A DNA stretch of 64,000 bases. Origin: Hymenobacter sp. ISL-91 (GTDB lineage Bacteria > Bacteroidota > Bacteroidia > Cytophagales > Hymenobacteraceae). The DNA lies in contig NZ_JAGGPS010000009.1 in NCBI RefSeq assembly GCF_018613725.1, positions 124,001 through 188,000 on the forward strand, given 5' to 3'. The notes below the pieces were generated by a model. It did no database searches. It was not told the DNA's origin and saw only the letters and a program-made list of their open reading frames with translations. The position numbers were made by a program, and so were the translations under genes. Shown here in pieces: positions 52,340-62,268 of this stretch. Each line of letters starts with the position of its first letter. The stretch's first letter is position 1.

Positions 52340-52413
52340 CCGACGCTTCATCCGCTTCATCCGACGCTTCGGTAACGGCGAGTTTCAGCGGCCCCGGCGG
52401 CGGCGCACTTTTG
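52340..52413 (+). promoter_or_regulatory. Tandem direct-repeat operator and promoter-like element upstream of the TonB receptor
   Basis: CCGACGCTTC occurs at 52340-52349 and again at 52361-52370, 21 bp apart. The 19-bp stretch TCCGACGCTTCGGTAACGG (52360-52378) is identical to 54833-54851. Exactly 27 bases after it comes CACTTTTG (52406-52413), which resembles the Bacteroidota -7 element TAnnTTTG; the ATG follows at 52436. Confidence 0.65.
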
Positions 52414-52435
52414 GGCATCCCTTCACTGCCCCGCC

Positions 52436-54631
52436 ATGAAACGCCTCCTGCTGCTTCCGTTGCTACTACTGACCTTCTCCAGCTTCGCCCAAACCACCCT
52501 GCGCGGTACCGTGCGCGACGCCGGCGGCCAGGCATTGCCGGGCGTAAACGTATTCGTGCGCGGCACTTTCGATGGGGCCAGCACCGACTTGCTGGGCCGG
52601 TTTCGGTTTGAAACCACGGCCCCGGCGGGCGCCTACGTGGTGCAGGCCAGTCTGCTGGGCTTCATTACCAGCGAAAAAACGCTGACCCTGCCTGCCCCAG
52701 CTGCGCCGCTGAGTTTCGTGCTGAAAGGCGAGCCGCACGCGCTGGGTTCGGTGGTAATTACGGCCGGGGCCTTCGAGGCCAGCGACGAGCACCGCAGCGC
52801 CGCCCTCAACACCCGCGACATTCAGACCACGGCCGGAGCACTGGCCGATGTGGCGGCGGCTTTCAACACGCTGCCGGGCACCACGCGGGTAGGAGAGGAC
52901 GGCCTGCTGTTCGTGCGGGGCGGAGCGGCTTCGGAAACCAAGGTGTACCTCGATGGCCTGCTGGTGCAGAATCCGTTTAATGCTACCGTGGCCGCGGTGC
53001 CGGCCCGGGGGCGGTTTTCGCCCAGCCTGTTTAAGGGTACGGTGTTCAGCACGGGCGGCTACTCGGCGCTGTACGGGCAGGCGCTGTCGGGGGTGTTGCT
53101 GCTAAATTCGACCGACCTCGCGCCCGAAACCCAGACCGGGCTGTCGGCTACCTCCGTGTTTCTGGGGGCCTCGCGCACCAAGCGTTGGGAGCGGACTTCG
53201 CTGGCCCTGAGCGCCGACTACACCAACCTGACGCCCTACGCCAAACTGCTTCCCCAGAACGTGCGCTGGGACCAGGCCCCGCGCGGGCTGGCCTCGTCGG
53301 CGAGCCTGCAGCACCGCACCGGCCAGGCCGGCATGCTGAAAGTGTATGGCACGCTCACGGGCCAGCAGCTGCAGATTGGGCAGCCCAGCCCCGAGCCGGC
53401 CGGCACGCAAACCGTGGGGCTGCGCGGAGCCAACGCCTACCTCAACGCCACGTTTCGGGGGCCGTTGCGCCGGGGCTGGAGCCTGCAGAGCGGCCTGGCC
53501 CTGAGCCGCGACGACCAGCGCCTGCGCCCCGACTCGGTGCGGCTGCGCACGCTGGAGCAGGCGCTGCTGGGCCGGCTGGTACTCATCAACGACTCGGTGC
53601 ATGCCCGCTTCAACCTGAAAATAGGGGCCGAAGGGCTGGTGCAGCAGGTGAGCCAGACGGTGCAGCCCAACGCCGCCAGCCCGCTTACCTACCGGCCGGA
53701 ATTTGGCGAGCAGCGCCTGGCGGGCTTCGTGGAAAGCGACTTTCAGCTGAGCGACCGGCTGGCGGGCCGGGTAGGGGGCCGCACCGAGTATTCGGGGCTG
53801 CTGGGCGCCTGGAACGCCGCGCCCCGGCTGGCCCTGGCCTACCAGACCACCGCCAGCAGCTCGCTCTCGGCCGCTTATGGCCACTTCTACCAAACGCCCG
53901 ACAACGGCCTGCTGCTGGTGGCCGCGCCCCGGCTACGCTTCGAGCGGGCCCGGCACGCGGTGCTTACCTACCAGTACACCCACAACGGCCGGCTGCTGCA
54001 ACTCGAAGGCTACCACAAAACCTACGGCCGGCTCGTGCGCTTCGACGACCGGCAACCTCGCAACCCCCAGGCCTACGACAACGGCGGCGCCGGCTACGCC
54101 CGCGGCCTCGACTTGCTCTGGCGCGACCGGAAGAGCCTGAAAAACCTGGAGTACTACGTCAGCTACGGCTTCCTGGACACCAAGCGGCAGTTTCGGCAGG
54201 ACCCGGTGCTGGCCGTGCCCACCTTCGCGGCCCGCCACAACGTGTCGGTGGTGACGAAGTACTGGCTGCCCGCGCTGCATACGCTGGTTGGGGCCACCTA
54301 CAGCTACGGCAGCCCCCGCCGCTACCACGACCTCAACCAGCCCGAAGCCGGCTACAACCAGGGCCGCCTGCCCGCCTTCCAGGAGCTGAGCCTGAACGCC
54401 AGCTACCTCACCAAGCTGTTCGGGCAGTTTACCATCGTGCATCTGGCCCTCAACAACGTGCTGGGCCAGCCCAACGTGTTTGGCTACCGCTACGCCCAGC
54501 GCCCCGATGCCGCCACCGGCCAGCACAACCGCGTGGCCATTACGCCCACCGCCCCGCGCATGGTGTTTCTGGGCGTGTTTGTCAGCATCAACAAGCAAAA
54601 CCCCGCCAGCGTGAACGAGCGGCCGGAATGA
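52436..54631 (+). CDS. TonB-dependent receptor with carboxypeptidase-like N-terminal domain
   Basis: 731 residues with a signal peptide ending about residue 19 (TFSSFAQ). The carboxypeptidase-like domain (about 22-105) has LRGTVRDAGGQALPGVNVFVRG. The plug follows (TTRVGEDGLLFVRGGAASETKVYLDGLLVQNPF), then a long barrel ending in an aromatic-rich C-terminus (MVFLGVFVSINKQN). It is an outer-membrane importer or signalling receptor. The gene opens a probable co-regulated block with the helical-repeat protein and the LytS/LytTR pair. The upstream promoter-like element is shared with the next gene. A 60-bp-arm palindrome begins at the base after its stop. Confidence 0.92.
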   Translation: MKRLLLLPLLLLTFSSFAQTTLRGTVRDAGGQALPGVNVFVRGTFDGASTDLLGRFRFETTAPAGAYVVQASLLGFITSEKTLTLPAPAAPLSFVLKGEPHALGSVVITAGAFEASDEHRSAALNTRDIQTTAGALADVAAAFNTLPGTTRVGEDGLLFVRGGAASETKVYLDGLLVQNPFNATVAAVPARGRFSPSLFKGTVFSTGGYSALYGQALSGVLLLNSTDLAPETQTGLSATSVFLGASRTKRWERTSLALSADYTNLTPYAKLLPQNVRWDQAPRGLASSASLQHRTGQAGMLKVYGTLTGQQLQIGQPSPEPAGTQTVGLRGANAYLNATFRGPLRRGWSLQSGLALSRDDQRLRPDSVRLRTLEQALLGRLVLINDSVHARFNLKIGAEGLVQQVSQTVQPNAASPLTYRPEFGEQRLAGFVESDFQLSDRLAGRVGGRTEYSGLLGAWNAAPRLALAYQTTASSSLSAAYGHFYQTPDNGLLLVAAPRLRFERARHAVLTYQYTHNGRLLQLEGYHKTYGRLVRFDDRQPRNPQAYDNGGAGYARGLDLLWRDRKSLKNLEYYVSYGFLDTKRQFRQDPVLAVPTFAARHNVSVVTKYWLPALHTLVGATYSYGSPRRYHDLNQPEAGYNQGRLPAFQELSLNASYLTKLFGQFTIVHLALNNVLGQPNVFGYRYAQRPDAATGQHNRVAITPTAPRMVFLGVFVSINKQNPASVNERPE

Positions 54632-54800
54632 GTTGCTAGTTGTCAGTTGCTAGTTGTCAGGAAACCGGGTCATGCTGAGCGGAGCCGAAGCAGCTCTACC
54701 GCAGCGGTAATCCTGTCGAATACAACGAAGCAATAGAGACGCTTCGACTCCGCTCAGCATGACCCGGTTTCCTGACAACTAGCAACTGACAACTAGCAAC
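54632..54800. repeat. Class A element with 60-bp arms and mirrored heptamers
   Basis: The arms 54632-54691 and 54741-54800 pair over 60 bases with one mismatch; the spacer is 49 bases. The outer part of the arm is GTTGCTAGTTGTCA heptamer-type repeats and the inner part is GTCATGCTGAGCGGAG. It begins at the base after the TonB receptor stop. Further CTGACAA units run to 54809. Confidence 0.92.
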
Positions 54801-54812
54801 TGACAACTGAAT

Positions 54813-54886
54813 CCCACGCTTCATCCGGCTTATCCGACGCTTCGGTAACGGAAAGTTTTGGCGGCGGCGGCTGGGCGCCACCTTTG
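54813..54886 (+). promoter_or_regulatory. Second copy of the direct-repeat operator and promoter-like element
   Basis: CCCACGCTTC at 54813-54822 and CCGACGCTTC at 54834-54843 are 21 bp apart. The 19-bp identical core is at 54833-54851; CACCTTTG is at 54879-54886, again 27 bases after the core. TTTTGG near 54856 may be a -33 element. The next gene starts at 54941. Confidence 0.65.
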
Positions 54887-54940
54887 AAACAGCAAAACCA
54901 GCCAGTGCTTACCTCTCAACCTCTTACGCCCTTATTACCC

Positions 54941-55639
54941 ATGAAAAAGCCTCTGCTCACCCTCGCCCTCGTTGCCGCTTCCCTGGCCTCTTTCGCTCAG
55001 AAACCCGTCCCTGCTGCTCCTGCGCTGGCCGCCGCGCCGGCCGATGCCTACACCACCCTGATGACGGCCGCCGTTGCGGAGCTGATGAGCACCGGCGACC
55101 CGGCCGCCCTTAAAGCCAGCGCCGCCAAAATGGAGCGCGCCGCCGCCGTAAAACCCCAGGACTGGCTACCGCGCTACTACCAGGCCTACGCCCTGCTCAT
55201 CCACACGTTCCAGAGCAAGGAAGACGGCGACGCGAAAGACCAAACCCTCGACCAGGCCGAGGCGGCCCTGGCCCAGGCCCGCAAGCTGGCCGGAGCCGAC
55301 GAATCGGAGCTACTGGTGCTACAGGCGTACATCCATCAGGCGCGGCTGAGCATTTCGCCCATGCTGCGCTCCATGAAGTATTCGGGCCTGGTGAACGAAG
55401 CCGTTGAAAAGGCCATCCAACTCAATCCTGCCAATCCCCGGGCGTATCTGGTGCAGGGCAACAACCTGTACTACACGCCCGCCATGTTCGGGGGCGGGGC
55501 CGAGGTGGCCAAACCTGTTTTCCTGAAGGCTAAAGCGCACTACGCGACGTTTAAACCGGCCTCCCGGCTGGCACCCAACTGGGGCGAGCGGCAGGTGAAC
55601 GGCCGGCTGAAAGCCTACGAAACGGCCGCCGTGAAATAG
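54941..55639 (+). CDS. Secreted helical-repeat (TPR-like) protein
   Basis: 232 residues from ATG 54941 (MKKPLLTLALVAASLASFAQ), with a signal peptide ending about residue 20. An upstream start at 54884 lies inside the promoter element and would displace the signal. Mature residues look like TPR-type helical repeats: LMTAAVAELMSTGDPAALKASAAKMERAAAVKP, PRYYQAYALLIHTF, LDQAEAALAQARKLAGAD, VEKAIQLNPANPRAYLVQGNNLYYTP. Periplasmic partner of the TonB receptor upstream is a reasonable guess because both share the same upstream element. Followed by the LytS/LytTR pair. Confidence 0.88.
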   Translation: MKKPLLTLALVAASLASFAQKPVPAAPALAAAPADAYTTLMTAAVAELMSTGDPAALKASAAKMERAAAVKPQDWLPRYYQAYALLIHTFQSKEDGDAKDQTLDQAEAALAQARKLAGADESELLVLQAYIHQARLSISPMLRSMKYSGLVNEAVEKAIQLNPANPRAYLVQGNNLYYTPAMFGGGAEVAKPVFLKAKAHYATFKPASRLAPNWGERQVNGRLKAYETAAVK

Positions 55640-55749
55640 GCCGGCGGGCAGGAGTAGGGGCTTTCGGGCTGCTGCCGCCACCGCTGCCGCCGCGCTGGTT
55701 TCCCCCGCTTTCGATACCTTCCACCCCATATACCGTCAAGGTTCTACCT

Positions 55750-56871
55750 GTGAAAGCCGACTCTATTTCCGCCTACACTGCTTCGGCTACCTCACCACCA
55801 ACTACGGCGGCCGAACGCAACGACCTTTCGCGGTATTACCCGCACCGTAATTTGTGGAAGGGCCTGGGGCTGATGACGCTTATTGCGTTTGGGCTGGCGC
55901 TGCTGTTCAACGCAGGCAGGCACCCGATCTGGAGCGAGAAGTTTCTGGTGACCTTTGCCTACAACTTCTTTTACACCACCGGACTGTGGCTGGCTAACGG
56001 CTACCCCTCGGAATGGCTCAACCGCCGCGTCGACTGGACCCGGCAGCCCATCAAGCGGTTTCTGCTCACGATTGGCCTTTCGATAGTGCTGTCGTTGCTG
56101 GTTATTATAGTCGTCGATGGCAGTTTCCGGGTCTTCTACCACCACCGCCCGCTTAGCTCGCTTACCTGGCAAACGTTTGTCGTTCCGCTGCTGATTACGG
56201 TGGTCGTGTCGTTGTTTATGCACAGTCGGGCGTTTCTGATGGGCTGGCGCGAAACGGCTATCCGGGCCGAGCGGCTGCAAACCGAAAACGCCCGCGCCCA
56301 GGCCGATTCGCTGCGCCGCCAGCTCGACCCGCACTTTCTGTTCAACTCCCTCAACGCCCTCACCTCGCTCGTGGAGGACGAGCACGACCCGGCCCGCGCC
56401 TCCCGCTTCATCCGCCAGCTCAGCCAGGTGTATCGCTACGTGCTCGACCACCAAAACCAGGAGTTGGTGCCGCTAACCGAGGAGCTGGCCTTTGCCGAAA
56501 GCTACCTGTTTTTGCAGCGCACGCGCTTGGGCGAAGGCGTGCAGGTAGCAATGCACCTGCCCCCGGCCGCCGAGCTGCAGGCGCTGCTGGTGCCCCCGCT
56601 GGCGCTGCAGCTGCTCCTCGAAAATGCCCTCAAGCACAACGCCACGTCCCGCCACAACCCACTACGCCTCGTTATCGAGTTCGATGCGGAAGCCCGCCAG
56701 CTCGTAGTGCGCAACTCGCGCCTGCCCCGCCTGGTGGCCGAGGCCGAATCGACGGGACTGGGCCTGTCCAACCTGCAGGCCCGCTATGCCTTCCTCACGC
56801 CCAAACCTGTGCTCATCACCCAATCGGAAACCGAGTTTGTCGTAACGCTGCCGGTGCTGGAGCTGCGGTGA
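55750..56871 (+). CDS. LytS-type sensor histidine kinase
   Basis: 373 residues, GTG start. Four membrane segments between about residues 35 and 160 with short loops form the sensor. The dimerisation/phosphoacceptor block LRRQLDPHFLFNSLNALTSLVED (His195) and the ATP-binding region LVPPLALQLLLENALKHNA, then STGLGLSNLQARY, are those of the LytS/YehU family (His_kinase, PF06580). It is cytoplasmic-membrane bound and phosphorylates the LytTR regulator encoded 87 bp downstream. The signal is unknown. The family usually pairs with the response regulator as an operon. Confidence 0.95.
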   Translation: MKADSISAYTASATSPPTTAAERNDLSRYYPHRNLWKGLGLMTLIAFGLALLFNAGRHPIWSEKFLVTFAYNFFYTTGLWLANGYPSEWLNRRVDWTRQPIKRFLLTIGLSIVLSLLVIIVVDGSFRVFYHHRPLSSLTWQTFVVPLLITVVVSLFMHSRAFLMGWRETAIRAERLQTENARAQADSLRRQLDPHFLFNSLNALTSLVEDEHDPARASRFIRQLSQVYRYVLDHQNQELVPLTEELAFAESYLFLQRTRLGEGVQVAMHLPPAAELQALLVPPLALQLLLENALKHNATSRHNPLRLVIEFDAEARQLVVRNSRLPRLVAEAESTGLGLSNLQARYAFLTPKPVLITQSETEFVVTLPVLELR

Positions 56872-56958
56872 GTTGGAAACGGCTGTAGTGCGAAGCTACG
56901 GCCGTGCAGATTGCACTATCACCGTTCGATTTTTCAACTTTCAACCCGTACTTCTCAC

Positions 56959-57747
56959 TTGACTCCTCTCCGCGCCCTTATTATTGAAGACGAGCCGCTG
57001 GCCGCCACGCGCCTGGCCGGACTGCTGCAAAAACAGCCGATGCCGGTAGTAGTGGTGGGCATGGCCGAATCGGTGGCCGAAGCTGAGGCGCTGCTCCGCA
57101 ACCCCGGCACCCCGCCCGACGTGCTGCTGCTCGATATCCATTTGGCCGACGGGCTGAGCTTCGAGCTGTTCGAGCGGTTGGAAATCCGCTGCCCGGTCAT
57201 CTTCACCACGGCCTACGACAAGTACGCGCTGCGGGCTTTCAAAGTGAACAGCATCGACTACCTGCTCAAGCCCATTGCCCCGGAAGAGTTGACGGCCGCC
57301 CTGCAAAAGCTGGTGCAGCGCCGCGAGGCAGCCCCGGCCCCGGCGTTTGATGCGGCCCTGCTGGCCCAGGTACTGGCGCAGGCCCGGCAGCCGGTCCGCG
57401 AGTACAAGTCGCGCTTCGTGGTGCGGGTGGGTGAGCACCTGAAAGCCGTGCCGGTCGAGGACATTGCTTACTTCGCCAGCCTCGAAAAAGCCACGCTGCT
57501 GCACACCCACGAAGGCCGCCGCCTGGTAGTCGATTACACCCTGGAGCAGCTGGAGGCCCTGCTCGACCCGCGCGAGTTCTTTCGCCTTAACCGCGCCTAC
57601 TTGGCCCGCGCCACCGCCATCCGCGACATCATCCACTACACCAACTCACGCCTGCAAACTATTCTGCAGCCCGCCCCACCCGACAACGACACGGTGCTGG
57701 TAAGCCGCGAGAAAGTCAGCACCTTCAAGGAGTGGCTGGATAGGTAA
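56959..57747 (+). CDS. LytTR-family response regulator
   Basis: About 262 residues from TTG 56959 (LTPLRALIIEDEPLAATRLAG); an earlier TTG at 56911 adds residues before the first strand and is less likely. The receiver domain has Asp59 as phosphoacceptor (VLLLDIHLADG), with IEDEP near the start and Lys105-type YLLKPI. The LytTR DNA-binding domain spans about 150-262 (FVVRVGEHLKAVPVEDIAYFASLEKATLLHT, then FFRLNRAYLARATAI). LytTR domains bind pairs of direct repeats spaced about two helical turns apart, which is the arrangement found upstream of two genes just before this pair. Confidence 0.95.
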   Translation: MTPLRALIIEDEPLAATRLAGLLQKQPMPVVVVGMAESVAEAEALLRNPGTPPDVLLLDIHLADGLSFELFERLEIRCPVIFTTAYDKYALRAFKVNSIDYLLKPIAPEELTAALQKLVQRREAAPAPAFDAALLAQVLAQARQPVREYKSRFVVRVGEHLKAVPVEDIAYFASLEKATLLHTHEGRRLVVDYTLEQLEALLDPREFFRLNRAYLARATAIRDIIHYTNSRLQTILQPAPPDNDTVLVSREKVSTFKEWLDR

Positions 57748-57828: not shown

Positions 57829-60800
57829 TTAGTAGAGCATCAGGCGCTTCGTTACATTGCCCCTGGCCGTTTGCACAACCAGCAGGTACAACCCGTTGGC
57901 ACCAGCCGCGAAGTGCAATATCTGGCTTGTAGCAGGATTGCGGCTCAGATCAATTTCCTGCACCAGGCCACCCAGCGCGTTGTAAACTCGCACGCGCTCC
58001 ACAGCAAAGTCAGCCCGAAGCCAGTCCAGCGTAACCATGCCGCGAGCCGGATTGGGGTACACCGCAATAGACTCCTGCGCCGAGAGCGGCAGCAGCCTGA
58101 AAGCCGTAGCCGACTCCGCGGCCCCACCCGTGCCGCGCATAGTGATGGGCCCGGCTACGGCCCCGGCCGGCACCCGCACCGTTGCCTGAGTGGCTGAAGA
58201 GGTCAGCACCGTTGCCCGAATACCGTCTACGTACACGGTATCGGCCAAGCCGTCCACCAGAAAATCGGTGCCCGTAAGCGTCAGTACCTCGCCTACGCTG
58301 GCTTGTGCAGGCGAGAAAGAGGTGATGCCCGGGGCGGGCAGGAAAGTAAATGCCTGTTCCGATACCGCAGTGCCGCCCGGCGTCTGCACCCGCAACGGTC
58401 CAGTCTGGCTGCCGGTCGGGATTTTGATTTGCAGGCTTTCTGCGGTGGCTTGCACCACAGTAGCTGTAGCGCCCGCACCCACCAAAACCGTGTTGCGCTC
58501 GGCTGGGGCGAAGCGGCTGCCGGTTATGCTAACCAAAGTGCCCGCCTTCCCGCGGGCCGGACTAAAGCCCGCCAGCGTGGGTGGATACCATACGGTGAAG
58601 GCCCGTGTGCTTTCTACGGCTCCGCCCCGCGTGCCTATTCTAACAAACCCGGAAGTGGCGTTGGCGGGCACCCTTACGGTTAGCTGCGTTGGGGTAGCTT
58701 GTTCTACCAAAGCCGGCGTGTTATTAAACCACACGGTATCCTGCCCAGCCAGCGCCCCGAACTCGGTGCCGGTCAATGTTATGCGGCTGCCGGGTATGCC
58801 TTCGTCGGGTGCTACGGCCGTTAGCGTTGGGGGCTGATAAATGGTGAAAACCTGCGTTGTGCGGCCGGCGCCGTCGGCCGTTGCCACCTGCACCGTGCCG
58901 CTGGTAGCGGCCGGGGGCACCCGCACGGTGAGCGTGGTGGCCGTGGCGCTGAGCACCGGCGTGGCCACTCCATTGAACCGGACGATGTTGCCGGCCGTGC
59001 CCGCATCAAACCGCAGCCCCCGCAACGTAACCAGCGTTCCGGCGCGGCCCTCGGCCGGGGTTAGCTGGCTAATGAACGGAGAGGCCAGCACCGCCGGAAA
59101 CGATACGGCCACGGCGGGCTCTACCTCCAGGGGCATATCGTAAATGCGGTTCGTGGTGCGGTTGGTGCGAATGGCGGGGTTGTAATCGAAAAAGATATCG
59201 GCCTCGTTCTCAATGAGGGCGCGAGCCGGCAAGTCGGCCCTGGGCCGGATGCTGAAGCTGACGAAACCATTGCTGCCCGCCTCGTCGCGGGAGCTGGGCG
59301 GCAGGTTGATGTTGTTGAAAGCGAAGGTGAGCACCGGCCGGCCCCGGCCGCTGACCGTTAGCTGGTAGGGGCCAGATGCGGCCGTTACGCGCAGGGTTTG
59401 CAGGTCGAGGTCGGCGGCCAGCGTGTCCACCACCACTACCCGGTAGGCATCGTCGTTGCCGGTGTTCTGAAACCGAACGGTGAAGCGCAGCGGCACACCG
59501 GTGGGGGTATAGTGCTGGGCCGTACTACCGGTCGGCAATACCAGCTTATCGTTGGGGTCGAAGGAGTCCAGAATGGGCTGGCAATCCTGGGCCGTTTCGG
59601 GACCCGGCACGTTGGGGGGGGAGGCCAGCATATCGGGGTTGGGCTGGCCATTGAGGCTTAGGCTGCGCACTTCCACGGTGCTGCTGGCCGTGCGTTGGGT
59701 GGGGTGGTTGGCGGGCTGATCGGCTTCCAGGCGTACTACCGGCCGGGTGGCCGGCACGCGCAACACCAAACTATCACCGGCCGCCAGCAGGTAGCGGTGC
59801 GTAAGGGCCAGCTGGCTGTTTTGGTAGAGGCGCAGGCCCAGGCTGTCGGCGGTGGTCGTGGCCGATGTGTTGCGCAGCACAAACCGCACCTGATTATCTG
59901 CTTCCAAGCGGCCCTGTACTGTTACGGCCGCGCCGTTCCAGCCGGGCACGGGGTAGGTGTTGAGTGGCGTAATCCAGGCCTTGGTGCACACCGTCAGGCC
60001 CCGCAGGTCGGGGTTGTCGCACACCACCGAATCCTGGATAACGATGCGGCCACCACTGTTAGCGGCCAGCGTGCCCACCTCGAACACGTACTGGCCCGCG
60101 GCATCGCGGGTGTGCGGAAAATCGGCGGAGAGAAAAACAACTTCTGGGGGCAATACCACGGTTACCCGCGCATCGGGGGCGGGCGCGAAGCCGATGTTGG
60201 CGTACTCGACGGTGGTGATGTTGCGGAAGCAGCGCCGCCGCCGGTTCGAGCCCACATGCATGGTTAGGTAAGGAGCCGTACCAACCAAGTTGCCAAAATC
60301 GGGACCGGTTCCGGTCAGGCCGTAGGTGGGCAGCGCAACCGTGTCGGCCGAGGTGCAGAGGGGCACAATGATCCGGCCGGTTTCGTTGGTCGGTAGCAGC
60401 TGGCTCACAGTGTATTTTCCGGTGTCTACTACAATGGCGTAGCGGCCATTCGCATCGGTGAGGCCGTAGTAGTTGCCGGGCTGAGCCGCCACAACAATGT
60501 TGGCTAGCGTCGGCTCCGTTTCTCCGAGCGTGCAGCTGTTGTCCCGGTCTTGGTAAACGGTACCCGTAATCAGATTTTGGGGTGCTATCTGATCATTGGT
60601 GTAAAAGCGAATCAGGTCGCCTTCAGAGGTAACCAGCCGGCCGCCTCGCGGGTCGATAGCCACCATGCCTTTACGCACGTTGGCCAACGTGGTAATGGAA
60701 CTGCCATCGGCCGCGAAGAATTGCACCCCTGCTTTAAGCGAAGTGTTCACATAGATATTGCCTACGCGGTCGACGGCCATGTGTACGTCGCTAACCGAAA

Positions 60801-62268
60801 CGCTCTGGTTCATAGAAGTACGCGGCCCGAACTCGCGCACCAGCTTGCCATCGGGGGTGAAGCGCTGCACCCGCGAGCCCCCGTTGTCGGTGGCGTACAC
60901 GTGGCCCTGCGCGTCGAGGGCAACTGCCTGCGGCAGCCACAGCTGACCCTCGCCGGTACCCCAGGTGCCAATCGGCGGCAAAACCTGGCCCTGAGGACCA
61001 AGGCGCCGCACGCAGCCCGCGTAATAATCGGTGATATACAGATTGCCCGCCCCATCGGCGGCCATAGCAGCCCTGTGATAGTCGGACCCAAGCTCAAATC
61101 CGAGCGAAGTAAACTCAGCGAGCAGCCGGCCATTCAGATCCCGTTTCTGCACTTGGACACCCGTTGAAGAGGAACCACGACTGAACAGGTATAGGTTGCC
61201 CAGCGGGTCGATAGTCAGCACCTCGACGTAAGGCATTTTTGCACCGCTATTGGGCAAAGGCCCCAGCAGCTCACCGTTGGGCGCGTACCGGAGGATGTTG
61301 CCCACCCGCGGGTTGTAGCAGTAATAGTAGCCGGACGCATCGAGCACACCCGCAGTGAGCGTAGTGAGGTTGCCCCAGGTATCAAGCAACTGCCCGGTGG
61401 CGTTGTACTTGCGTAGCTTGCTGTTGCCCCCATGGTCGCGGTCGGTGGCGTACAGGTTGCCGGCCGCGTCGCAGGCCAGTAGCGTCCGGGTGCCGTAGAA
61501 ACTGCCCACCGTGCCCATTGCCGCTCCGGCAGCCGAAAACTTCCGGATATTCCAGCCTTGGGAGCTGCTGGCGTACAGGTTGCCGGCCGCGTCGACGGCC
61601 AGTGCGGTGGGCTCGTCGTACGAAACGGTTGCCGCATCCAGCAGAAAAGATTGCAGCAACTGACCCTGCGGGGTGAGTTTGGTAACCACAAAGTCCATCC
61701 CGTACACGTACACCATGCCCTGGGAATCCAAGGTTATATCGAGGGGCTTTTTTAGCAGGCTGGTAGTGGCGCTGCCGTAAGTGAACAGCAGCTGTCCGTT
61801 TTGGTCGAACTTTTGGATACGGTTGTTGTAGGTGTCGGCCACGTACAGGTTGCCCGCCGGATCTACGGCTAGGCCGTTCAGCCGCGTATATGCCGCCGGA
61901 GCCGCGCCCACCAAATTAAACTGGCGCACCAGTTGTCCGGCCGGGTCGAACTGGTCTACGCTGCTCTTTTGGTAGTCGAGCACGTATAGGTTGCCCGCTG
62001 CATCCACGCCCAACCCCGAAGCTTCGCCAACGTGCCCGGGGCCCACTTTAATCTGTCGCACCACCTCTCCGCCAGGAGTGAGCTTGGTGATGCCGATATC
62101 ATCCAGCAGATACATGAACCCGGCTCTGTCAACGGCCAAATCTGCCGGGAATTCCACCGGGGTGCCGGCCGTTCTAGTTAGCTGGAAAGTTGGCGCCTGT
62201 CCGAAACTGCCTGGAATAGTCGCCCATAAAAATAGGCTGATCAGTAGAATTCTTAGCATATATAGCAA
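57829..62268 (-). CDS. Giant T9SS-secreted protein with NHL repeats and TIG domains
   Basis: 1479 residues with a signal peptide ending about residue 24 (TIPGSFGQ). Residues about 30-540 are NHL-type beta-propeller repeats (many LAVDAAGNLYV-like blocks). Residues about 545-625 are a prealbumin-like/SdrD-like module (ITGTVYQDRDNSCTLGETEPTLANIVV). A Cys-containing conserved region at about 900-1050 (QDCQPILDSFDPNDKLVLPTG, then FRFTVRFQNTGNDDAY) matches the uncharacterised C-terminal DUF7619-type domain found in Bacteroidota cell-surface proteins. Four TIG/IPT Ig-like domains follow (about 1065-1400, each starting PxxxxxxPxxGxxGTxVTxxG), and the last 75 residues are a type A T9SS sorting domain (VYPNPARGMVTLDW). 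Probably surface-attached in adhesion or glycan interaction. Alternate start at 62259. Confidence 0.9.
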   Translation of the reverse strand: MLYMLRILLISLFLWATIPGSFGQAPTFQLTRTAGTPVEFPADLAVDRAGFMYLLDDIGITKLTPGGEVVRQIKVGPGHVGEASGLGVDAAGNLYVLDYQKSSVDQFDPAGQLVRQFNLVGAAPAAYTRLNGLAVDPAGNLYVADTYNNRIQKFDQNGQLLFTYGSATTSLLKKPLDITLDSQGMVYVYGMDFVVTKLTPQGQLLQSFLLDAATVSYDEPTALAVDAAGNLYASSSQGWNIRKFSAAGAAMGTVGSFYGTRTLLACDAAGNLYATDRDHGGNSKLRKYNATGQLLDTWGNLTTLTAGVLDASGYYYCYNPRVGNILRYAPNGELLGPLPNSGAKMPYVEVLTIDPLGNLYLFSRGSSSTGVQVQKRDLNGRLLAEFTSLGFELGSDYHRAAMAADGAGNLYITDYYAGCVRRLGPQGQVLPPIGTWGTGEGQLWLPQAVALDAQGHVYATDNGGSRVQRFTPDGKLVREFGPRTSMNQSVSVSDVHMAVDRVGNIYVNTSLKAGVQFFAADGSSITTLANVRKGMVAIDPRGGRLVTSEGDLIRFYTNDQIAPQNLITGTVYQDRDNSCTLGETEPTLANIVVAAQPGNYYGLTDANGRYAIVVDTGKYTVSQLLPTNETGRIIVPLCTSADTVALPTYGLTGTGPDFGNLVGTAPYLTMHVGSNRRRRCFRNITTVEYANIGFAPAPDARVTVVLPPEVVFLSADFPHTRDAAGQYVFEVGTLAANSGGRIVIQDSVVCDNPDLRGLTVCTKAWITPLNTYPVPGWNGAAVTVQGRLEADNQVRFVLRNTSATTTADSLGLRLYQNSQLALTHRYLLAAGDSLVLRVPATRPVVRLEADQPANHPTQRTASSTVEVRSLSLNGQPNPDMLASPPNVPGPETAQDCQPILDSFDPNDKLVLPTGSTAQHYTPTGVPLRFTVRFQNTGNDDAYRVVVVDTLAADLDLQTLRVTAASGPYQLTVSGRGRPVLTFAFNNINLPPSSRDEAGSNGFVSFSIRPRADLPARALIENEADIFFDYNPAIRTNRTTNRIYDMPLEVEPAVAVSFPAVLASPFISQLTPAEGRAGTLVTLRGLRFDAGTAGNIVRFNGVATPVLSATATTLTVRVPPAATSGTVQVATADGAGRTTQVFTIYQPPTLTAVAPDEGIPGSRITLTGTEFGALAGQDTVWFNNTPALVEQATPTQLTVRVPANATSGFVRIGTRGGAVESTRAFTVWYPPTLAGFSPARGKAGTLVSITGSRFAPAERNTVLVGAGATATVVQATAESLQIKIPTGSQTGPLRVQTPGGTAVSEQAFTFLPAPGITSFSPAQASVGEVLTLTGTDFLVDGLADTVYVDGIRATVLTSSATQATVRVPAGAVAGPITMRGTGGAAESATAFRLLPLSAQESIAVYPNPARGMVTLDWLRADFAVERVRVYNALGGLVQEIDLSRNPATSQILHFAAGANGLYLLVVQTARGNVTKRLMLY

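Follow-up and report, generated by a model that had tools for sequence, protein, structure and literature searches.

In the 64,000-nucleotide stretch of Hymenobacter sp. ISL-91 DNA analysed here (the window), four consecutive plus-strand genes encode a TonB-dependent receptor, a homologue of the haemophore HusA (husA-like gene), a LytS-type kinase and a LytTR response regulator, and a pair of direct repeats spaced by 21 bp precedes each of the first two genes (Table 1). We consider it quite probable that these repeat pairs are operators of the LytTR regulator encoded at 56959-57747, through which it would activate the receptor and husA-like promoters. That the pairs are sites of the adjacent regulator had been proposed in a first-pass annotation of this DNA, and the proposal is now supported by three sequence comparisons, in which the pair stands at the same two promoters in congeners, precedes receptor genes that have moved elsewhere, and outside the genus varies with the subfamily of the adjoining regulator. 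The LytTR domain of the regulator was identified with PF04397 (E 1.8e-17), and a LytTR-domain protein is thus encoded inside the putatively regulated locus.

Two repeat pairs precede two promoters of the genome

Re-reading of the sequence confirmed the repeats at 52340 and 52361 and at 54813 and 54834, together with their 21-bp spacing. The two promoters do share an identical core, though its length is 20 bp (52359-52378 and 54832-54851) and not the 19 bp first given, and the elements CACTTTTG and CACCTTTG each begin after 27 bases counted from the end of this core, as had been claimed. Over the whole shared block 40 of 46 bases are identical between the two promoters, and 29/60 are identical in the 60 bases that precede each site. 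Repeats of 10 nt separated by a spacer of 11 nt match the definition of a LytTR operator, in which two 9-11-nt repeats are separated by 11-13-nt spacers (PMC4847170).

With at most three mismatches allowed, the window has two matches of the 31-bp pair, where 100 shuffles gave 0.01 on average, and at the same tolerance the pattern CCGACGCTTC-N11-CCGACGCTTC had exactly two matches in the 4.03-Mb genome (54 contigs), one upstream of the receptor gene and one upstream of the husA-like gene; the reversed pair pattern had none in the whole genome. The pair, whose possible commonness across the genome had been named as a reason for doubt, is thus rare and confined at this tolerance to the two promoters. 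The single 10-mer with one mismatch was weakly enriched (11 matches versus 6.15 expected, a number reached in 3 of 100 shuffles).

Each pair stands just upstream of promoter elements, at a fixed distance to a TTT and to a CAC-TTTG element, which agrees with the earlier placing of the element directly before the probable promoter. In LytTR regulatory systems the repeats lie mostly ~10 bp before the -35 element and drive positive autoregulation (PMC6193735), and the promoter consensus of Bacteroidota is TTTG/TANNTTTG, with TTTG at -33 and TAHHTTTG at -7 (PMC6847099). The present sites fit the published repeat layout and position before the promoter, and the promoters fit the Bacteroidota form TTTG/TAHHTTTG, save for a C where the -7 element should begin with T; such a departure from consensus would be in keeping with a promoter that depends on an activator. 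Transcription had been predicted to start 7-10 bp past the CACnTTTG element, and this distance is revised to the 4-5 nt after the -7 element expected for Bacteroidota promoters (PMC6847099).

The pair is conserved at both promoters within Hymenobacter

A husA-like match was found in 115 of 120 sampled Hymenobacter genomes, and 100 husA-like loci were oriented and compared together with the own locus (101 loci). The repeat pair was found at the husA-like promoter in 93 of the 101, the own one included. Alignment on the pair yielded the conserved columns ACRCTTCATCC-N5-ATCCGACGCTTC, followed by GGTAAC, AAGTTT and the CAC-TTTG element at a fixed distance. Information was high in both half-sites and the spacer was partly variable, while the 40 bases upstream of the pair carried at most 0.3 bits per column at husA-like promoters and at most 0.5 bits at receptor promoters, the latter in an alignment of 54 rows of which one is a husA-like promoter (L062). 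A half-site spacing of 21 bp was counted 69 times at husA-like and 31 times at receptor promoters, and any other distance at most three times.

A matrix trained solely on husA-like promoters was then applied, at a threshold of 15 bits, to the upstream regions of those genes in the 101 loci whose start was locatable (100 husA-like, 69 receptor, 78 kinase and 99 regulator genes). It recognised 58 of the 69 receptor promoters and none of the 78 kinase or 99 regulator upstream regions of these Hymenobacter loci; the 91 of 100 husA-like promoters that passed are the training set and hence give no independent figure. Because no site was found before either gene, the kinase and the regulator are probably read through from the husA-like promoter. 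When both strands were scanned at 10 bits or more (1,737,124 positions), 143 of 179 matches fell at listed promoters and 36 elsewhere; by inspection, some of the latter were missed promoters (for example L033, L041 and L114), and many were seemingly a codon stretch within the regulator gene. Fifteen loci were listed as having a weak pair or lacking it, and most of them retain, by reading, units with a 21-bp period, some with three. Three 21-bp-spaced half-sites in place of two are apparent, by reading, in the husA-like promoters of loci L081, L084, L089, L092, L104, L112, L115 and L118. In several congeners (e.g. genomes G031, G002 and G064) a second regulator match, ~50% identical and on the opposite strand, adjoins the regulator gene; none is seen at that place in the window.

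A search of all 120 genomes for the consensus pair (at most three mismatches) returned 176 matches versus 6 for the reversed pattern, and the matches were distributed over 95 genomes, 66 with exactly two, 22 with one and 7 with more. Among 20 matches outside the locus that were read, 14 immediately preceded a receptor orthologue situated on another contig or at a distance of some kilobases; in genomes with a relocated receptor gene, the element moved along with the gene. The locus is incomplete or altered in a few genomes: G072 and G073 have the site before a partial-length receptor match, with a close regulator orthologue not found; the stretch fetched from G064 keeps the receptor-type site, and the husA-like protein was matched only at its end; in the stretches fetched from G055 and G101 the regulator is present and an intact receptor or husA-like gene was not found; and in G108 the locus is cut by a contig end.

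Some matches outside the locus (L147-L150) lie directly upstream of a gene for a small 2TM-domain protein (2TM confirmed for L147), beside which a divergent macro-domain gene stands in at least L147 and L148. This 2TM gene occurs in 112 genomes, and the 30 upstream regions sampled (L331-L360) hold related but differing 21-bp arrays, 11 of the 30 scoring 10 bits or more. No 21-bp array was seen upstream of the 2TM gene in the own genome. This array probably serves a different LytTR system as its operator, and it was left out of the regulon count. In several congeners it is of the ACGGTTCA type, with three units in places. A match in G018 (C420:20450) likewise stands just before the 2TM gene of that genome.

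Outside the genus the half-site varies with the regulator subfamily

Among 291 Cytophagales genomes, a husA-like gene was found in 105, representing 37 of 115 genera with Hymenobacter included. Forty loci from other genera were collected in two sets. A receptor match lay upstream within ~1.2 kb in 37 of the 40 (none in L284, L290 and L296), a kinase match followed in 31, and 28 had a regulator match, which in one case was a fragment. Alignment inspection divided the regulators found by profile into two LytTR subfamilies, type A with 7 members and type B with 20. After the two loci with Hymenobacter-like sites (L261, L262) and the three without a receptor match had been left out, 35 receptor upstream regions were scored. 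The motif NTTCRTCRGAAA was present at 11 or more of its 12 places in 15 of 18 loci with a type-B regulator, in 0 of 5 with type A and in 3 of 12 with no profile hit (type B 15/18 versus others 3/17, p 1.3e-4), a score reached in 0.8% of shuffles, which preserved nothing but base composition. The second set, which lay outside the motif definition, gave 7/8 for type B versus 3/9 for the others (p 0.036). In 3 of the 5 type-A loci (L263, L264, L299) the receptor gene is preceded by evident ACA[GC]TTCATC-like pairs with 21-bp spacing, and self-similarity across the 12 anchored rows of the first set peaked at 21 bp (0.40; next, 0.33 at 29). By these comparisons, the half-site outside Hymenobacter changes together with the subfamily of the adjacent LytTR regulator, and this covariation is our best evidence that the adjacent regulator would read the site.

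In a wider sample of 395 genomes of the phylum, 99 had a husA-like gene. Thirty loci were returned, of which 26 outside Hymenobacter were examined; the receptor gene adjoined the husA-like gene in all 26, and a related kinase lay within 1.5 kb in 8 of them, 2 of those 8 from the same order.

The locus resembles a HusB/HusA-type uptake pair joined to a two-component system

Pfam and NCBIfam searches yielded no name for the husA-like protein, whose nearest named relatives by best-segment identity are those of H. terrestris (91%), H. lapidiphilus (88%) and Hymenobacter sp. CCM 8763 (86%). The first match of its structural model (mean predicted local distance difference test score, pLDDT, 87) in the PDB was Porphyromonas gingivalis HusA (Foldseek E 9.8e-11), with which the model aligned at Z 24.4 over 197 residues, versus 16.3 for the next row. 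A family profile searched against the PDB sequences hit HusA at E 8.7e-41 over profile positions 37-232, and nothing else at E ≤0.001. By sequence profile and model, the protein is a HusA homologue with the HusA fold, a name that replaces its former label of helical-repeat protein.

HusA stacks porphyrins on F80 and Y164 with no obvious iron coordination, and is thought to pass them to HusB (PMC6173696). Of 29 family members compared at the porphyrin-groove positions, 28 have F at the F80 position and 27 have F or Y at the Y164 position; the tryptophan of the W130 position is not kept. The cargo of the unit is probably a porphyrin or haem. The receptor has a Plug domain close to the cut-off (PF07715, 24.4 bits versus 23.9), and its model resembles TonB-dependent transporters (BtuB, PhuR and others) at a mean pLDDT of 63, with the plug region below 50; the term HusB-like is taken for it solely from the neighbouring HusA homologue. 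Given the homology of the small protein to HusA, the unit resembles an uptake pair of the HusB/HusA type that has a two-component system of its own. What the first-pass annotation called a four-gene signalling unit is accordingly read as a transport pair combined with a two-component system.

Proposed mechanism

In response to a presumed signal, the LytS-type kinase would phosphorylate the LytTR regulator, and two regulator protomers would occupy the half-sites, which lie on the same side of the helix at a distance of two turns, just upstream of the -33 element. The outer-membrane signal that the first-pass annotation suggested as a possibility is not supported by the present comparisons. The bound regulator would help RNA polymerase at a Bacteroidota-type promoter with a -7 element one base off consensus. 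Activation of the receptor promoter would raise the outer-membrane receptor, and activation of the second promoter would raise the HusA-like protein, predicted to bind porphyrin or haem, together with the kinase and the regulator, amounting to positive autoregulation.

Conflicting observations and alternative explanations

Several observations weigh against activation of a Hus-type pair by the adjacent regulator. Within the genus, the consensus pair at three or fewer mismatches is absent in 25 of 120 genomes, the 15-bit threshold is missed by 11 of 69 receptor promoters and by 9 of the 100 husA-like promoters that form the training set, and 6 of the 20 matches read outside the locus are not receptor promoters, four of these six being those before the 2TM gene. 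Genome G006 has an intact receptor gene with the site, yet its best regulator match is 47% and it has no husA-like match; a strict one-to-one link of regulator and site is weakened because the site is kept there without a close regulator orthologue. Outside the genus, 2 of the 5 type-A loci are without a clear pair (weak in L278, none by reading in L300), 3 of 18 type-B loci are without the B motif and 3 of 17 others have it; the B motif was derived from the first set, and some loci of the second set are near relatives of the first. As for the Hus assignment, the position of HusA W130 is S, G, A or F in the family, so that the tryptophan is not conserved.

The sites might be LytTR operators whose main reader is a different LytTR regulator of this genome, or several regulators whose specificities overlap. 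With 11 matches to the regulator query in the own genome, such a second reader is conceivable; similar 21-bp arrays precede the unrelated 2TM-protein gene in several congeners, and G006 has the site as described. We regard this explanation as unlikely, since in the own genome the site was found only at genes adjoining this regulator, and outside the genus the half-site varies with the subfamily of the adjacent one.

The adjacent regulator might also repress at these sites, for instance braking uptake when haem or porphyrin is plentiful, and uptake genes are indeed often repressed under plenty. A LytTR protein, CoxC, binds three direct repeats that overlap the -35 box and represses (PMC11347149). 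In the present promoters, however, the pair stops 11 bases short of the -33-like element without overlapping it, and the -7 element deviates from consensus in its first position; most LytTR regulators, according to the same source (PMC11347149), bind upstream of -35 and activate. Repression is accordingly held to be improbable.

A recent duplication of a promoter segment that has no dedicated regulator would also produce a shared block. This is conceivable from the own genome, whose two promoters are identical at 40/46 bases over the block and at 29/60 before it, a point that in this one genome counts against a purely functional reading. It is very nearly dismissed by the other genomes: in many species both genes keep the block, whereas its flanks are variable and so are parts of the spacer. 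Activation by the adjacent regulator is therefore retained as the preferred explanation.

Relation to known systems

LytTR operators and the Hus system are each already known. The present sites resemble the direct-repeat operators of YpdB (on GGCATTTCAT repeats) and of HdrR and BrsR of Streptococcus mutans in their two ~10-nt direct repeats with an 11-nt spacer, in their position just upstream of the promoter and in an operon layout permitting autoregulation; AgrA, AlgR and BtsR are further LytTR direct-repeat regulators. They differ from those operators in the Bacteroidota-type promoter, in the half-site ACGCTTCATC, in the arrangement of one operator on a transporter gene and one on a haemophore gene preceding the kinase and regulator genes, and in an apparent limitation to two promoters in the present genome.

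The P. gingivalis Hus system (HusA, HusB) is matched in the homology to HusA over positions 37-232, in the fold, in the adjoining receptor gene and in the aromatic F80 and Y164 positions of nearly all family members; unlike in P. gingivalis, W130 is replaced and a LytS/LytTR pair follows in the Hymenobacter locus. HusC and HusD are given as of unknown function in PMC10100897, and by word counts the term LytTR is absent from the texts of PMC10100897 and PMC6173696 as retrieved. HaeSR of P. gingivalis is alike in being a self-regulated two-component control of haemin acquisition (PMC3764172), but has many target genes versus two promoters here, and neither 'LytTR' nor 'hus' occurs in the retrieved text of that article. 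The literature searched, with most subscription journals outside its scope, yielded nothing joining LytTR operators and Hus, and no LytTR operator for any TonB-receptor locus in Bacteroidota. In Bacteroidota, LytS/LytTR pairs are commonly encoded next to TonB receptors, and no operator or ligand for such pairs was found in the same literature.

More broadly, and as a tentative extension that we hold to be possible but somewhat doubtful, Cytophagales and some other Bacteroidota might keep Hus-type uptake under its own LytS/LytTR pair through a 21-bp switch, whose half-site and LytTR domain would have changed together between subfamilies. If so, one orthologous promoter series would offer a naturally assembled data set from which the LytTR recognition code could be read. 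The locus offers a precise candidate operator, an apparent two-promoter regulon and a probable cargo class, testable in environmental bacteria, and many matched pairs of regulator and candidate operator for the study of DNA recognition by LytTR domains. Through it, the haemophore family of HusA, known from work on an oral pathogen, is linked to a large group of free-living bacteria, in which it has a candidate regulator.

Features of the locus and its surroundings

Table 1. Genes, repeat half-sites and promoter elements of the locus (window coordinates)
Feature	Position	Strand	Basis and remarks
Half-site 1, receptor promoter, CCGACGCTTC	52340..52349	+	Window and genome pattern search, footprint in congeners
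Half-site 2, receptor promoter, CCGACGCTTC, 21 bp after half-site 1	52361..52370	+	Pattern search, congener alignment
-33-like element GTTTC, receptor promoter	52382..52386	+	Column information; TTT kept in both promoter sets
-7-like element CACTTTTG, receptor promoter	52406..52413	+	Departs from TAHHTTTG at first base
TonB-dependent receptor (CarboxypepD_reg + Plug)	52436..54631	+	Domain search; HusB-like only through neighbouring gene
Half-site 1, husA-like promoter, CCCACGCTTC	54813..54822	+	Window and genome pattern search
Half-site 2, husA-like promoter, CCGACGCTTC	54834..54843	+	Pattern search, congener alignment
-33-like element GTTTT, husA-like promoter	54855..54859	+	Column information
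-7-like element CACCTTTG, husA-like promoter	54879..54886	+	Column information
HusA-like haemophore homologue	54941..55639	+	All-helical, cysteine-free; signal peptide judged by eye
LytS-type histidine kinase (His_kinase PF06580)	55750..56871	+	Domain search; GTG start uncertain
LytTR response regulator (Response_reg + LytTR)	56959..57747	+	Domain search; TTG start uncertain

By hydropathy, three membrane helices are clear in the LytS-type kinase and a fourth is possible; a large outside domain is not apparent. Between the receptor gene and the husA-like promoter, a palindrome of two 68-nt arms that are 96% complementary occupies 54631-54801; it is a member of a dispersed repeat family with 71 arm-motif matches genome-wide, often in opposed pairs ~70-85 bp apart, and may serve as an insulator of the second promoter. 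Directly downstream of the regulator gene, the opposite strand (57829-62268) encodes a large protein in which NHL, IPT/TIG and DUF7619 domains are combined with a Por secretion tail.

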